Below are positions 20,175 to 27,497 of a DNA stretch of 37,337 bases, piece by piece; within the stretch, counting starts at the first letter, position 1; each line of letters begins with the position of its first letter. The stretch comes from Synechococcus sp. AG-679-B05 (GTDB lineage: Bacteria > Cyanobacteriota > Cyanobacteriia > PCC-6307 > Cyanobiaceae). Under the pieces are notes generated by a model that searched no databases, was not told the origin of the DNA, and was given only the letters and a program-made list of their open reading frames with translations. The translations under genes and the position numbers were made by a program. Location: assembly GCA_003210795.1 (NCBI GenBank), contig QCUJ01000016.1:1-37337 (forward strand). Reading direction: 5' to 3'.

Positions 20175-21632
20175 GTGACCAAGACTCGCCTGATTCCAGT
20201 CATCCTCTGTGGTGGAACTGGTACGCGGCTCTGGCCCCTGTCCCGAGCCAGTTATCCAAAACAATATTGGCCCCTCAGCGGAGAGGGTGATGCAACCCTG
20301 CTGCAACAGACCCAACAACGTCTGCAAGGGTTGGACGGCCTGGAATCACCTCTGCTGATTTGCAACGAAGACCACCGCTTCATCGTGGCGGAGCAGATGC
20401 GGCAGATCGACGTGGTGCCCAGTGCCATCCTGCTCGAACCCATGGGTCGAAACACGGCTCCCGCCGTGACCGTGGCAGCGCTGCAAGCGACGGCTTGCGG
20501 CGAAGATCCCTTGTTGCTGGTACTGGCAGCAGATCACATGATTCGTGATGCTGCCGGCTTCCGTCAGGCCGTGGAATCCGGTCGCGGTGCGGCCGAAGCA
20601 GGACGACTTGTGACGTTCGGCATCGTGCCGACGGCTCCGGAAACCGGTTACGGCTACATCGAGGCCGCCGAACCCTTCCACCCCGGAAGACTCGCGGACG
20701 TGCCCATTGCGCGCTTTGTGGAGAAGCCGGATCAGGCAACTGCAGAGCAGTTCCTAGCGACGGGTCGCTTCACCTGGAACAGTGGAATGTTCCTGTTCAA
20801 AGCCAGCGCAATGCTGGCGGAACTCGAGCGATTGGCTCCGGATGTGGTGAGCTGCTGCCGAGCGGCCCTGGAACAAGACAGTGCCGATCTCGACTTTCTT
20901 CGCCTGGAGCGAGAAGCCTTCGCTAGGTGCCCAAACGTTGCCATCGATGTGGCGGTGATGGAACAAACCGCCCTGGGATCGGTGTTGCCTTTGGATGTTG
21001 GTTGGAGCGATGTGGGCAGCTGGAGTGCCCTCTGGGAAACAGGTAATCGCGATAGCGACGGAAATGTGCTGCAGGGGCGTGTGATCAGTCAGGGGAGCCG
21101 TAATTGCTACCTGCGCAGCGAGCACAGGCTGGTTGTAGGCCTTGGGGTGGAAAACCTGGTGGTGGTGGAAACCGATGACGCCGTACTGATCGCAGACCGG
21201 TCCAAAGCCCAGGACATCAAGACCGTGGTGAAGCAACTGGAGGCTGATGGCAGTCCGGAGGGCAAAGCCCATCGCAAGATCTACCGACCCTGGGGTTCCT
21301 ACACCGGAGTCACGGAAGGCAGCCGCTGGCAGGTGAAGCGAATCTCTGTGAACCCCGGAGCAAGCTTGTCACTTCAGATGCACCACCACCGAGCCGAGCA
21401 TTGGATCGTGGTGAAGGGAACTGCCATTGTTGAATTGAACGGTCAGGAGCAACTGCTGACCGAAAATCAGAGCACTTATATCCCGTTAGGTTGCAAGCAT
21501 AGGCTGAGCAATCCGGGGAAGATTCCTGTTGAGTTGATTGAAGTGCAGAGCGGTGAATATCTCGCAGAGGACGACATTGTCCGCTTCCAGGATCGCTACG
21601 GGCGCAGCGAGTTGATCCTCACTCAACCGTGA
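20175..21632 (+). CDS. manC: Mannose-1-phosphate guanylyltransferase / mannose-6-phosphate isomerase
   Basis: A bifunctional enzyme giving GDP-mannose for surface polysaccharide. The nucleotidyltransferase domain starts PVILCGGTGTRLWPLSRASY with PKQYWPL, and has LEPMGRNTAPAVTVAAL, LAADHMIRD, FVEKPDQATAEQFL and DVGWSDVGSW. The C-terminal cupin (isomerase) domain has RPWGSYTGVTEGSRWQVKRI, LSLQMHHHRAEHWIVVKGTA and the end YIPLGCKHRLSNPG. It has 485 residues, typical of type II enzymes. Start is GTG 20175. Its last 14 bases overlap the convergent glmS. Its product could feed the glycan genes further right, but it lies outside the AT-rich island. Confidence 0.93.
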   Translation: MTKTRLIPVILCGGTGTRLWPLSRASYPKQYWPLSGEGDATLLQQTQQRLQGLDGLESPLLICNEDHRFIVAEQMRQIDVVPSAILLEPMGRNTAPAVTVAALQATACGEDPLLLVLAADHMIRDAAGFRQAVESGRGAAEAGRLVTFGIVPTAPETGYGYIEAAEPFHPGRLADVPIARFVEKPDQATAEQFLATGRFTWNSGMFLFKASAMLAELERLAPDVVSCCRAALEQDSADLDFLRLEREAFARCPNVAIDVAVMEQTALGSVLPLDVGWSDVGSWSALWETGNRDSDGNVLQGRVISQGSRNCYLRSEHRLVVGLGVENLVVVETDDAVLIADRSKAQDIKTVVKQLEADGSPEGKAHRKIYRPWGSYTGVTEGSRWQVKRISVNPGASLSLQMHHHRAEHWIVVKGTAIVELNGQEQLLTENQSTYIPLGCKHRLSNPGKIPVELIEVQSGEYLAEDDIVRFQDRYGRSELILTQP

Positions 21633-23508
21633 CGCTTTTGGCCAGATTTCGGGGCTGATCGACATCCAGACCCCGATGTGCAGCGATGTGATAACTCAAT
21701 AACTGCATCGGAACAACCGTCAGCAGTGGGCTGACCCACTCGCTCACCTCTGGAACGGGCAGGAGTTCATCGAAAAGGTCCGTATCGGGTCCCTGGGGAG
21801 CAACCCCGATCAGCTGAGCATCCCTCGCTTTCGCTTCCTGGGCATTGCTGAGCACTTTTTCGAACACGGTTCCTGGCACTGCAATCGAGACCACCGGAAC
21901 ATTGGCATCGAGCAAGGCGATCGGACCATGCTTCATCTCGCCAGCCGGGTAACCCTCCGCATGGATGTAACTGATTTCCTTGAGCTTCAGCGCACCTTCG
22001 AGAGCAATCGGATAGTTAATGCCACGTCCCAAGAAGATCACATCCTGAGTGTCGGCAAAACGATGAGCCAGCCCCTCCAATCGCTGATCGTGAAGGTGAA
22101 CTAAATCCTGCAGCTGCTGAGGCACTTCGCGCAGAACACCGGCAAGAAACTGAATCTCCTCAATCGAGCGTTGACCTCTTTGGGCTGCGAACGCAAGGGT
22201 TAGGCCGTAAAAGGCCAGCAACTGGCCGAGAAAAGTTTTGGTGGCAGCCACACCAACTTCGATGCCGGCACCTATATCCAAAATGTGAGCAACCTGGCGA
22301 GACAGTGAACTCTCCGGCCGGTTGGTCACCCCCAACTGACGCGGAGCAAAGCTGGGGTCGGGATGGCTCTGCCGCCGGTCAGCTTCCATCGCTAATGCAG
22401 CCAACGTATCGGCCGTTTCTCCAGACTGGGTCACACCAATCGTGAGGGTGTTGGGTGCCAGTGGTGGTGGGGCATAGCGGAACTCGCTGGCGTAATGAAC
22501 CGCCGTCGGAATACCCGCGAACTGCTCCAGCAGATGGGCACCAACAAGAGCGGCATGCCGACTGGTGCCGCAGGCCAGGATCTCGATCCGCTCAATCCCG
22601 GCGTAAAAGCTGTCGTCGAATGGCAGTGCGACGGGCCGATCCGCAGGCAGCCCCGCCGGCAGATGCCGAGCCACCCAAAGAGCAGCCGTCTCGGGCTGCT
22701 CATGGATTTCCTTGAGCATGAAATGGCGAAAATGCCGCTTGTCCGCCACCTGCTCGGTAGCGCTGAGCTGGGTCGGCAGTCGGTGCTGACGCTCACCTGA
22801 AGCGTCATACAGCTCCACCCCCAAAGGGGAGAGAAGCGCCACCTCACCATCCTCCATTGGCAGAATCGTGCGCGTGAATCCAGCCAACGCCGGCGTGTCA
22901 CTGGCGCAGAGGAATTCTCCTTCCCCGAGGCCGATCAGCAGCGGCGCTGCTTTGCGGGCCACAACCAGAGCACCCGGCAGCTGATCCCAGATCACCGCCA
23001 GGGCGTAGGCACCCTCAAGAAAGAACAACACAGCCTGCACAGCCTGCAGCAACAACGCAGCAGTGGCTGGTTCGCCAGCTGCAAGGCAGCGTTGCAGCTC
23101 TTCAGCCACAAGGTGGGGGATGACTTCGGTGTCCGTCTCTGACTGGAAGACAACCCCTCTGCTCTCGAGGGCTTCGCGCAGATTGCGATGGTTCTCAATG
23201 ATGCCGTTCTGGACGACCGCTACCGAACCGTCCTGGCTCAGGTGAGGGTGAGCATTGCGCTCTTCGGGTTTGCCATGGGTGGCCCAGCGGGTGTGGCCTA
23301 TACCGCATCGACCTGGAGCGCCTTCAGCATCGACGCGCGCCTTCAGGTTGACCAGCTTGCCTTTGGCTTTCAGAAGGCTGAGCTGACCCGGTGCATCCAC
23401 CGTGGCAATTCCGGCTGAGTCATAGCCGCGATATTCCAGTTGCCCCAGGCCATCCAATAACTGCGACGCAGCCTGTTGAGAACCAACAAGAGCAACGATT
23501 CCGCACAT
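21619..23508 (-). CDS. glmS: Glutamine:fructose-6-phosphate aminotransferase (isomerizing)
   Basis: It makes glucosamine-6-phosphate, the entry to UDP-GlcNAc for peptidoglycan and for PseB in the island. The glutaminase domain begins MCGIVALVGSQQAASQ with the nucleophile Cys right after Met, so the start at 23508 is fixed. Further blocks are RWATHGKPEERNAHPHL, the first SIS domain (ILACGTSRHAALVGAHLLEQ, TQSGETADTLAAL), the second SIS domain (FLGRGINYPIALEGALKLKE, YAEG-like HAEGYPAGEMKHGPIALLD) and the C-terminal PRNLAKSVTVE. At 629 residues it is complete. The start codon touches the T run of the psaC terminator, leaving no room for a normal ribosome binding site of its own. Confidence 0.97.
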   Translation of the reverse strand: MCGIVALVGSQQAASQLLDGLGQLEYRGYDSAGIATVDAPGQLSLLKAKGKLVNLKARVDAEGAPGRCGIGHTRWATHGKPEERNAHPHLSQDGSVAVVQNGIIENHRNLREALESRGVVFQSETDTEVIPHLVAEELQRCLAAGEPATAALLLQAVQAVLFFLEGAYALAVIWDQLPGALVVARKAAPLLIGLGEGEFLCASDTPALAGFTRTILPMEDGEVALLSPLGVELYDASGERQHRLPTQLSATEQVADKRHFRHFMLKEIHEQPETAALWVARHLPAGLPADRPVALPFDDSFYAGIERIEILACGTSRHAALVGAHLLEQFAGIPTAVHYASEFRYAPPPLAPNTLTIGVTQSGETADTLAALAMEADRRQSHPDPSFAPRQLGVTNRPESSLSRQVAHILDIGAGIEVGVAATKTFLGQLLAFYGLTLAFAAQRGQRSIEEIQFLAGVLREVPQQLQDLVHLHDQRLEGLAHRFADTQDVIFLGRGINYPIALEGALKLKEISYIHAEGYPAGEMKHGPIALLDANVPVVSIAVPGTVFEKVLSNAQEAKARDAQLIGVAPQGPDTDLFDELLPVPEVSEWVSPLLTVVPMQLLSYHIAAHRGLDVDQPRNLAKSVTVE

Positions 23509-23531
23509 AAAAAAACCTGGCTGAAGCCAGG
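23509..23531 (-). terminator. Rho-independent terminator after psaC, abutting the glmS start
   Basis: On the minus strand CCTGGC (23531-23526) pairs with GCCAGG (23521-23516) across a four-base loop, which can close further to seven pairs, followed by seven T (23515-23509). The next base begins the ATG of glmS at 23508. Position 29 bases after the psaC stop fits termination of psaC. Confidence 0.85.
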
Positions 23532-23559
23532 CGGAGCTTATTCGAGGTTGTTCGGCGAA

Positions 23560-23937
<378 letters not shown>

Positions 23938-24180
23938 ATGTCCCAGGAAGCGATCCTCGAGAAAGTCAGCTCGATCGTTGCTGAGCAACTCAGCGTCGAT
24001 GCCGGAGAAGTGAAGCCGGAATCCAACTTCCAGAACGATCTGGGAGCAGATTCTCTGGACACCGTGGAACTTGTCATGGCTCTGGAAGAAGCCTTCGACA
24101 TCGAAATCCCCGACGAAGCTGCTGAGGGCATCACCACAGTCGGCGACGCCGTCAAATACATCCAAGACAAACAGGCCTGA
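23938..24180 (+). CDS. acpP: Acyl carrier protein
   Basis: Carries growing fatty acids on a 4'-phosphopantetheine arm. The attachment Ser39 is in [19 protein letters not shown], followed by [18 protein letters not shown], the standard helix II-III pattern. It has 80 residues from ATG 23938 ([10 protein letters not shown]); an upstream ATG at 23914 in frame would add eight residues with no family support. fabF begins 8 bases after its stop, so it is the first gene of an acpP-fabF(-tktA) operon. Confidence 0.97.
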
Positions 24181-24188
24181 GGAACGGC

Positions 24189-25436
24189 ATGGTGGATGGT
24201 CTCCATCGCGTCGTCATCACCGGTCTCGGCGCGGTCACACCGATCGGCAATACGGTTCAGGACTACTGGCACGGCCTGACGTCAGGCAGGAATGGTGTGG
24301 AAGGCATCACCCTCTTTGACGCCTCAAAACACGCCTGTCGCTTCGCGGCCGAAGTCAAAGACTTTGACCCTGCAGGCCTGATCGAGCCCAAAGAAGCAAA
24401 ACGCTGGGATCGATTTTGCAAATTCGGCGTTGTTGCAGCCAAACAAGCTGTGGCGGATGCAGGCCTTGAGATAACAGAGTCCAATGCTGAGCGCATTGGC
24501 ACGATTATCGGATCCGGAGTGGGTGGACTGCTCACGATGGAGACCCAGGCCCATGTTCTGAACGGCAAGGGGCCCGGCAGGGTGAGTCCATTCACCGTGC
24601 CGATGATGATTCCCAACATGGCCACAGGATTGGCGGCCATCGCACTGGGCACGAAGGGGCCTAGTTCCGCTGTTGCTACAGCCTGTGCTGCCGGGTCCAA
24701 TGCCATTGGCGATGCCTTCCGGTTGCTGCAGCTGGGGAAAGCGGACGCGATGGTTTGTGGTGGCGCTGAATCAGCGATCACTCCCTTGGGCGTCGCGGGA
24801 TTTGCAAGCGCCAAAGCCCTGTCGTTTCGCAATGATGATCCCGCCACAGCGAGTCGACCGTTCGACCGGGAACGAGACGGTTTCGTCATCGGCGAAGGCG
24901 CCGGAATTCTCGTGCTGGAGACTCTGGAACACGCACAAAGCCGTGGTGCCACGATCCTTGGCGAGGTGATCGGCTACGGGATGACCTGCGATGCCCACCA
25001 CATCACATCTCCAACGCCCGGTGGCGTCGGTGGTGCTGAAGCCATGCGTCTTGCATTGACCGATGCCGGCCTCGAGGCTGCCGAAGTGGACTACGTCAAT
25101 GCCCACGGCACCAGCACACCGGCGAACGACAAGAACGAGACGTCGGCCATCAAAAATGCCCTAGGGGAGCGGGCCCTGCAGATCCCCGTCAGCTCGACAA
25201 AGTCCATGACCGGCCACCTGCTGGGTGGCTCCGGCGGCATTGAAGCCGTGGCCTGCGTGCTGGCGCTGCAACACGGCGTCGTACCGCCCACCATCAACCA
25301 CTCCAAGCCGGATCCCGAGTGTGATCTGGATGTCGTGCCCAACCAGGCACGGGATCAGAGACTGGCAACCGTCTTGTCCAACTCCTTCGGCTTCGGCGGC
25401 CACAACGTCTGCCTGGCTTTCCGACGCGCCGCCTGA
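24189..25436 (+). CDS. fabF: 3-oxoacyl-[acyl-carrier-protein] synthase II
   Basis: Elongating condensing enzyme of type II fatty acid synthesis, working with the ACP encoded just upstream. The start VVITGLGAVTPIGNTV, the nucleophile in VATACAAGSNAIGDAF (Cys166), the two catalytic histidines in VNAHGTSTPANDKNET and KSMTGHLLGGSGGIEA, and the C-terminal SNSFGFGGHNVCLAF are all present. Length 415 residues is standard. ATG 24189 is 8 bases after acpP. tktA follows after 51 bases. Confidence 0.97.
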   Translation: MVDGLHRVVITGLGAVTPIGNTVQDYWHGLTSGRNGVEGITLFDASKHACRFAAEVKDFDPAGLIEPKEAKRWDRFCKFGVVAAKQAVADAGLEITESNAERIGTIIGSGVGGLLTMETQAHVLNGKGPGRVSPFTVPMMIPNMATGLAAIALGTKGPSSAVATACAAGSNAIGDAFRLLQLGKADAMVCGGAESAITPLGVAGFASAKALSFRNDDPATASRPFDRERDGFVIGEGAGILVLETLEHAQSRGATILGEVIGYGMTCDAHHITSPTPGGVGGAEAMRLALTDAGLEAAEVDYVNAHGTSTPANDKNETSAIKNALGERALQIPVSSTKSMTGHLLGGSGGIEAVACVLALQHGVVPPTINHSKPDPECDLDVVPNQARDQRLATVLSNSFGFGGHNVCLAFRRAA

Positions 25437-25487
25437 GCAAGACAGCTCGAACCATGCGTCACAATCGTCCCATCTTTCCTTAACTCC

Positions 25488-27497
25488 ATGGTCGCCGCGC
25501 CCGCATCCCTCGACACCCTCTGCATCAACAGCATTCGGATGCTGGCGGTCGATGCGATCAACAAATCCAACAGTGGCCACCCCGGCTTGCCAATGGGCTG
25601 CGCACCCATGGGTTATGCGCTCTGGGACAAGTTCCTCAATCACAACCCCAAGAACCCCAAGTGGTTCAACCGCGACCGCTTTGTGCTCTCCGCCGGTCAC
25701 GGCTGCATGCTGCTTTATGCGCTACTGCACCTCACCGGCTACGACTCGGTGAGCATTGACGACATCAAACAGTTCCGCCAGTGGGGCTCCAAGACTCCCG
25801 GTCACCCCGAAACCTTTGAAACCCCCGGCGTTGAAGTAACCACCGGCCCCCTCGGCGCTGGTATCGCCAACGCTGTGGGCCTGGCGATCGCTGAATCCCA
25901 CCTGGCCGCCAAGTTCAACAAGCCCGGCGCCACCCTCGTTGACCACTACACCTATGTGGTGATGGGCGACGGTTGCAACCAGGAAGGCATCTCATCCGAG
26001 GCTTGCTCGCTGGCTGGTCACCTCAAGCTGGGCAAACTCATTGCCCTGTATGACGACAACCACATCACAATTGACGGCCGCACCGACGTGTCGTTCACCG
26101 AGGACGTACTGAAGCGCTACGAGTCCTACGGCTGGCATGTGCAGCATGTGGCCGAAGGCAACACCGATGTGGATGCCATCGCCAAAGCAATCGCCGCCGC
26201 CAAGGCCGTCACCGACAAGCCGTCGATCATCAAGGTAACCACCACCATCGGCTATGGCTCCCCCAACAAAGCCGACACCGCTGGTGTTCACGGTGCTGCT
26301 CTTGGCGCAGAGGAAGCAGAATTAACTCGTCAACAACTGGGTTGGAATTACGCACCCTTCGAAATCCCCCAGGACGCCTACGAACAGTTCCGCCAAGCCA
26401 TCGACCGCGGCGCCAGCCTCGAGGCCGAGTGGAACCAGACCCTGACTACCTACCGCAACAAGTACCCCAACGAAGCCGCCGAGTTCGAGCGGATGCTGCG
26501 CGGTGAGCTGCCAGAGGGTTGGGACAAGGACCTGCCCACCTACAGCCCCGAAGACGGTGGCCTGGCCACCCGCAAACACTCCCAGATCTGCCTGGGTGCA
26601 TTGGGTCCCAACCTGCCCGAGCTGATTGGTGGCTCCGCTGACCTCACCCATTCGAACTACACGGACATCAAGGGTGAAGCCGGGTCCTACCAGGCCAGCA
26701 GCCCTGAGAAGCGCTACCTCCACTTCGGTGTGCGCGAGCACGCCATGGCCGCCATCCTCAACGGGATCGCATATCACAACAGTGGTTTGATCCCCTACGG
26801 CGGCACCTTCCTGGTGTTCGCCGACTACATGCGCGGCTCCATGCGCCTGTCTGCCCTGAGCATGCTGGGTGTGATCTACGTGCTCACGCACGACTCGATC
26901 GGCGTCGGCGAAGACGGCCCCACCCACCAGCCGATCGAAACCATCCCATCACTCCGAGCAATGCCAGGGATGTTGGTGTTCCGCCCGGGCGACGGCAACG
27001 AGACCAGTGGTGCATACAAGGTGGCGATCCAAAACCGCAATCGCCCCAGCTCCCTTTGCCTCAGCCGCCAAGGAATGGCCAATCAGGCGAACTCCTCAAT
27101 CGACAAGGTGGCCCTTGGCGGCTACGTGCTGGAGGACTGCGCCGGTACGCCCGATCTGATTCTGATTGGCACAGGTACTGAGCTCGACCTCTGCGTCCAG
27201 GCCGCCAAACAGCTCACAGCTGAAGGCAAGAAGGTACGCGTGGTATCGATGCCGTGCGTCGAGCTGTACGACGAACAGACAGACGCCTACAAGGAAGAAG
27301 TGCTCCCTAACGCGGTGCGAAAGCGCATGGTGGTGGAAGCAGCTGAATCCTTCGGCTGGCACCGTTTCATCGGCCTGGATGGCGACAGCGTCACCATGAA
27401 TCGCTTCGGAGCGTCAGCTCCGGGTGGAACCTGCCTCAAAGAATTCGGGTTCACAGTAGAGAACGTGGTATCCAAGGCCAAAGCGCTTCTAAGCTAG
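25488..27497 (+). CDS. tktA: Transketolase
   Basis: Thiamine-diphosphate enzyme of the Calvin cycle and pentose phosphate pathway. Visible are the N-terminal [20 protein letters not shown]-type block ([12 protein letters not shown]), [33 protein letters not shown], the cofactor motif [16 protein letters not shown] with the distant Asn in [38 protein letters not shown] and [16 protein letters not shown]. It has 669 residues, complete. It ends the core block: a strong terminator lies 28 bases after the stop, and the AT-rich island begins straight after it. Confidence 0.97.

Follow-up and report, generated by a model that had tools for sequence, protein, structure and literature searches.

A conserved hairpin between psaC and the glmS start codon in Synechococcus sp. 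AG-679-B05 and its relatives, with a plausible double role

Introduction

In Gram-positive bacteria, a ribozyme-riboswitch sits before glmS. For hairpins at the start region of a gene, the closest described systems are gene e (lysozyme) and I-TevI of phage T4, in which, according to the available excerpts of PMC3014915, a stem at the start site is inhibitory in long transcripts; the same excerpts locate the late promoters of gene e within the 5′ strand itself, so that their transcripts lack the 5′ portion of the stem (PMC3014915). Cyanobacteria have no Rho, and most transcription units of S. elongatus end by no known pathway, as described in excerpts of PMC13289151, so that the shielding of a gene from a strong neighbour in a compact genome is a live question.

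For the two genes considered here, excerpts of PMC2518516 report an antisense RNA to psaC in strain MED4 (asMED4_18171), and glmS occurs in them once, in the reference list. Neither psaC nor glmS is mentioned in the available parts of the main texts of PMC5069720, PMC7368042 and PMC13289151, and no description of a psaC–glmS junction appears in the titles and abstract openings of the literature searched. Here we analyse this junction in a stretch of 37,337 nt from Synechococcus sp. AG-679-B05 (contig QCUJ01000016.1; hereafter the window), whose source genome is partial (1.88 Mb, 77% complete).

Results and Discussion

On the minus strand of the window, psaC (23560..23805), encoding the 81-aa iron-sulfur subunit of photosystem I (TIGR03048, 187.6 bits against a cut-off of 130.65), ends with a TAA at 23562–23560, and direct reading gives 51 nt from there to the ATG (23508–23506) of glmS (21619..23508, minus strand). 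The latter encodes a glutamine--fructose-6-phosphate transaminase of 629 aa with a Cys directly after Met (TIGR01135, 735.2 bits against a cut-off of 418.05). The first-pass annotation had fixed the GlmS start by this Cys, and the alignment to solved GlmS chains bears it out: the first residue is matched to residue 1 of PDB 4amv, and the second, the Cys, to the first residue of both 1jxa and 2j6h, so that the start position can be regarded as secure. At its other end, glmS overlaps a plus-strand frame of 485 aa (20175–21632) tail to tail by 14 nt (21619–21632), which leaves nothing between the two; we take this frame to resemble mannose-1-phosphate guanylyltransferase.

Within the gap, the octamer ATAAGCTC (23534..23541, minus strand) lies 1 nt 5′ of a hairpin (23515..23532, minus strand), which has a 7-bp stem with arms GCCTGGC (23532–23526) and GCCAGGT (23521–23515), an outer G-T pair and the loop TTCA. 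Seven T (23509..23515, minus strand) form the last bases before the glmS start; the first of them is counted twice, as the wobble partner of the stem and as a member of the run. The hairpin has the structure of an intrinsic (Rho-independent) terminator, with a T run directly behind a GC-rich stem, and is presumed to be that of psaC on the grounds of direct reading, a terminator scan and compensatory changes in relatives. Both the reading and the scan confirm that the glmS ATG directly follows the T tract of the psaC terminator.

The reading that we prefer, which we hold at somewhat less than an even chance, is that a terminator and a promoter are nested at this junction. The hairpin and T tract, whose structure is evident, would end most psaC transcripts, and glmS would be transcribed from a promoter of its own, with TAAGCT (23540–23535) of the octamer just 5′ of the hairpin as the candidate −10 element. 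Transcription usually starts at about the seventh or eighth base after a −10 element, and by this spacing the predicted start falls in the 5′ arm of the stem (23527..23528, minus strand). With G23528, the seventh base after TAAGCT, as the first base, the leader would be about 20 nt long and the full hairpin could not form. Read-through RNA from psaC, by contrast, would have the hairpin only a few bases upstream of the glmS ATG, inside the ribosome footprint, and would by computation be poorly translated. The outcome would be that glmS, a modest housekeeping gene, is insulated from psaC, a strongly expressed photosystem gene.

The tight junction is not peculiar to AG-679-B05 and is found in many relatives. 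Among 170 psaC loci, some of which stand for one genome represented in two collections, psaC and glmS are less than 250 nt apart in 165, and 138 of these gaps are distinct; the loci yielding no gap are L060 and L064, with no glmS in the stretch shown, L105, in which psaC was not found, and L071 and L101, in which glmS is visible and was missed by the search pattern. The titles of the psaC relatives in the named collection are Synechococcus, Cyanobium, Prochlorococcus and similar. A GC-rich stem is present in 81 of the 138 distinct gaps under strict criteria and in 86 under looser ones. The comparison with related genomes to which the first-pass annotation pointed finds the same junction recurring, the stem core ending 5–12 nt before the ATG in 55 of the 86 hairpin gaps (0–11 nt when the longest stem is taken instead), which supports the nested arrangement. 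Another 26 of the remaining 31 hairpin gaps have a psaC-type left arm, 18–49 nt from the ATG, with L027 set apart among them because it carries this arm via a secondary stem; a few of the 31 hold unrelated hairpins (L019, L085, L097, L187). Judged by record titles and general background, the 26 wide-gap rows are mostly Cyanobium and lake Synechococcus, and all labels of marine, freshwater, high-light or low-light origin have the same basis; exceptions to the habitat split are RCC307 (L003), at 27 nt, and L046 of a lake series, at 6 nt. In the genus of the window, 22 of 24 genomes have a psaC match and two are without one, and the gaps measure 50–63 nt. Outside the family, 7 of 20 cyanobacteria have glmS no more than 700 nt from psaC, with gaps of 146–411 nt, which indicates that the gene order predates the tight junction.

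This older gene order, together with the short gaps throughout the genus, could also be taken for plain compaction. In that case, transcription from the promoter of psaC, or from one inside psaC, would leak through the psaC terminator into glmS; the hairpin would at most tune how much passes, and would lie so near the ATG merely as a by-product of a small genome. Leakiness has a precedent, since excerpts of PMC13289151 describe intrinsic ends in S. elongatus as leaky to a degree, with less read-through where there are more U. Compaction nevertheless leaves the octamer, the promoter-like hexamers of relatives without a GC stem and the stems without a T tract unexplained, and we consider it unlikely, albeit the strongest of the rival explanations.

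Since rows were selected for possessing a stem, only base changes within it are informative on whether the stem is under selection. Across 79 stems (eight registers set by hand, two rows left out), pair 4 is C-G in 71, T-G in four, T-A in three and A-T in one, pair 5 is once T-A, pair 6 once A-T and once T-A, and pair 7 once G-C. In 51 sequences aligned with MAFFT, pairing holds in 94.4% of cells, a value reached in none of 500 shuffles, and slid stems pair at most at 53.4%. Changes on both sides occur at three pairs of this alignment against a shuffled mean of 0.8 (9 of 500 shuffles as high); however, a control stem slid by −3 columns gives five such pairs and a covariation score of 0.106 against 0.114, so that covariation is modest. 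Pairing is thus clear, with the controls moderately in favour of covariation, and the double changes at pairs 4–7 and at the three MAFFT pairs support the preferred reading. So does the survival of the stem beside a poor T tract, with at most four T in the next 8 nt, in 6 of the 55 near-stem rows (L008, L062, L084, L127, L151, L154); L166 also reads four T and was excluded because its register is off. On a quick tree these six rows are spread over four places, where its forks are weak. The stem of L127 (G267, a member of the genus of the window) is a perfect inverted repeat of 13 bp that ends directly at the ATG of glmS and lacks a T run.

The octamer is about as conserved as the stem, its letters occurring in 49, 51, 46, 44, 47, 45, 48 and 49 of 51 sequences at columns 15–22 of alignment A1. 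Among the matches listed, the octamer with its left arm, ATAAGCTCNGCCNGGC, has one exact occurrence per genome, at psaC, in seven of eight genomes, and G024 has at psaC a form of ATAAGCTCNGCCNGGC with two mismatches. This conservation and this restriction to psaC support the nested arrangement. Exact TAAGCTC is found in only 39 of the 55 near-stem rows, which tells against that arrangement. As a general feature of terminators the octamer is disfavoured, because TAAGCTC with at most one mismatch accompanies only 1 of 24 terminator-like sites, that of psaC, in a 400-kb sample of the same-genus genome G112. An antiterminator in which AAGCTC would pair with the 3′ arm was also considered by eye and set aside; it is seemingly compensated in L084 and not in L154, L170 and L172.

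Many relatives without a GC stem carry promoter-like hexamers at a similar place, which likewise supports the preferred reading. One Prochlorococcus clade has TAAGTT ending 13 nt before the ATG in 9 of 9 rows. Of 52 distinct gaps that lack a GC stem, 35 have TATAAT ending 15–18 nt before the ATG, against 0.9% in shuffles of these 35; the 35 were, however, chosen for this hexamer and come from close relatives. We regard the octamer, TAAGTT and TATAAT as putative −10 elements of glmS. Many Prochlorococcus loci that lack the GC stem show an AT palindrome, TTTCAATATAATTGAAA, whose end lies 4–16 nt before the ATG; it has TATAAT at its centre (L015, L044, L045, L056 and other Prochlorococcus), and its arms are lengthened in some genomes, to 15 bp in L056. 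Four further loci (L174, L242, L245, L251) have no hairpin beside the ATG and share the stretch ATCCTTTAGAAACAGCC about 20–37 nt before it, possibly another glmS promoter.

Several observations count against the nested terminator and promoter. TAAGCT matches TATAAT at only three of six positions, no −35 element was seen upstream of it, and a consensus promoter scan reported no promoter at the octamer; eight of the 55 near-stem rows have no TA...T at the octamer position (L008, L084, L154, L157, L163, L164, L170, L181). The middle letters of the octamer are conserved equally with the T, A and T of the −10 element in alignment A1. In addition, TA...T, which is frequent by chance in AT-rich DNA, is absent within 25 nt of the ATG in 6 of the 17 other hairpin-less gaps (L023, L063, L098, L152, L173, L174). 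Finally, the motif starts 7–9 nt before the stem in most rows and its distance to the ATG is not kept, a spacing which also fits a 3′-end element of psaC.

In that explanation, the octamer would be a processing or protein-binding site, the stem would protect the psaC mRNA, and the glmS mRNA would be released from read-through RNA by a cut close to the ATG. The persistence of the stem after loss of the T tract in the six rows fits it as well as the octamer spacing does. Against it, TAAGTT stays in place, 13 nt from the ATG, where the stem is gone, and TAAGCTC stands between psaC and glmS in none of the 20 genomes outside the family. We regard such a 3′-end element as improbable.

The first-pass annotation argued that glmS must be transcribed either by read-through or from a start at the terminator itself. 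This dilemma is real, because a promoter does not fit into the 6–9 nt that separate the stem from the ATG; the start in the T run that it put forward, with a leaderless glmS mRNA, is however disfavoured in the lineage of the window. The hexamers of hairpin-less Prochlorococcus would start transcripts about 5–12 nt before the ATG, and excerpts of PMC5607370 place 6–8% of the primary starts of MED4 within 10 nt of a start codon. In the window, on the other hand, the sole TA...T candidate close to the junction is situated 5′ of the stem, and the start predicted from it is about 20 nt before the ATG. A leaderless mRNA therefore seems very improbable here, and a start within the stem, with the octamer as its promoter element, would fit better.

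How unusual the junction is was judged against the G112 sample (20 stretches, about 17%). At 5 of its 24 strict terminator-like sites, an ATG, GTG or TTG of a frame of at least 120 aa lies within 10 nt past the stem, and psaC–glmS is the sole one of the five with a stem score of at least 20 (21; the others 15–18.5). A strong stem 5–12 nt before a candidate start is by itself not rare (13 of 1099 candidate starts), and psaC–glmS is the only one of the 13 with a T run after the stem, as judged by eye. The same strong-stem test finds none among 96 candidate starts in the window, because the window's own stem scores 17.5, below the threshold of 20. Folding of the 81-nt junction is not unusual either (z −0.52; 57 of 200 shuffles fold as well). 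The case for the junction is thus carried by its conservation among relatives.

Opening energies for −13..+13 were computed for 47 of the 55 near rows, the eight rows without TA...T being skipped. RNA from the predicted start opens more cheaply than read-through RNA in 46 of the 47 sequences, L046 going in the opposite direction, with mean costs of 9.9 and 16.7 kcal/mol, respectively; this supports the preferred reading, although the comparison is weak since a shorter RNA tends to fold less. The window itself gives 6.9 against 11.6 kcal/mol. With fixed leaders in the window, 23 nt gives no relief (11.9 against 11.6) and 16 nt gives 4.3, so that the exact start matters. The stem does not pair with the start codon, and Prochlorococcus is probably independent of Shine-Dalgarno pairing (excerpts of PMC5607370), so that occlusion in general is meant. 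The view of the first-pass annotation that the hairpin would burden the start region of read-through RNA is consistent with these computed energies.

Its further proposal, a coupling of GlmS to photosystem I expression, found no support. An attenuator of this kind, with GlmS made mainly from read-through RNA and a regulated opening of the hairpin coupling cell-wall sugar synthesis to photosystem I expression, could invoke the hairpin beside the read-through start codon and its high computed opening cost, but it is the least probable of the explanations, since no leader RNA, the glmS ribozyme included, was found at the Rfam gathering score in 21000–25500 of the window, no signal was identified, and inspection by eye established no conserved alternative fold. 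Insulation of glmS from psaC fits better than such a coupling.

An extension of the nested terminator and promoter, which we put forward tentatively and consider doubtful, is that one element of about 40 bp would be at once the terminator of psaC, the promoter of glmS and a translational blocker of psaC–glmS read-through RNA, as a housekeeping counterpart to T4 gene e. The blocker would then have outlived the terminator in several lineages, and this would show selection acting on translational insulation as such. The junction is real, conserved and tidy, and a double or triple role is plausible. Should the nested reading hold, a single short element would combine three functions and offer a case in which selection for translational insulation can be tested; should compaction be all there is, the junction is orderly but nothing out of the ordinary.

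Comparison with known systems

Like the ribozyme-riboswitch of Gram-positive bacteria, the psaC–glmS hairpin is placed before glmS; unlike it, the junction gives no such RNA at the Rfam gathering score. It resembles an ordinary cyanobacterial intrinsic terminator in its GC-rich stem and T run after psaC, and differs from one in that the T run touches the glmS start codon and that some relatives keep the stem with a poor T run. The very short leaders predicted in hairpin-less relatives recall the leaderless and near-leaderless mRNAs of Prochlorococcus described in excerpts of PMC5607370, whereas about 20 nt of leader is predicted in the lineage of the window.

Phage T4 offers the nearest parallel. 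In contrast to the stem of gene e, that of the psaC–glmS junction is also a presumed intrinsic terminator of the upstream gene, ends 6–7 nt before the ATG and leaves the ATG unpaired, and in place of a phage timing switch it stands before a housekeeping gene of the host. As the promoter and the translational effect are putative here, we do not claim membership of the same class. As in gene e and I-TevI, however, a hairpin lies at the start region of transcripts from upstream, and a promoter, here a putative one, would yield RNA without the 5′ part of the stem, so that the logic of the psaC–glmS junction would be like that of T4 gene e.
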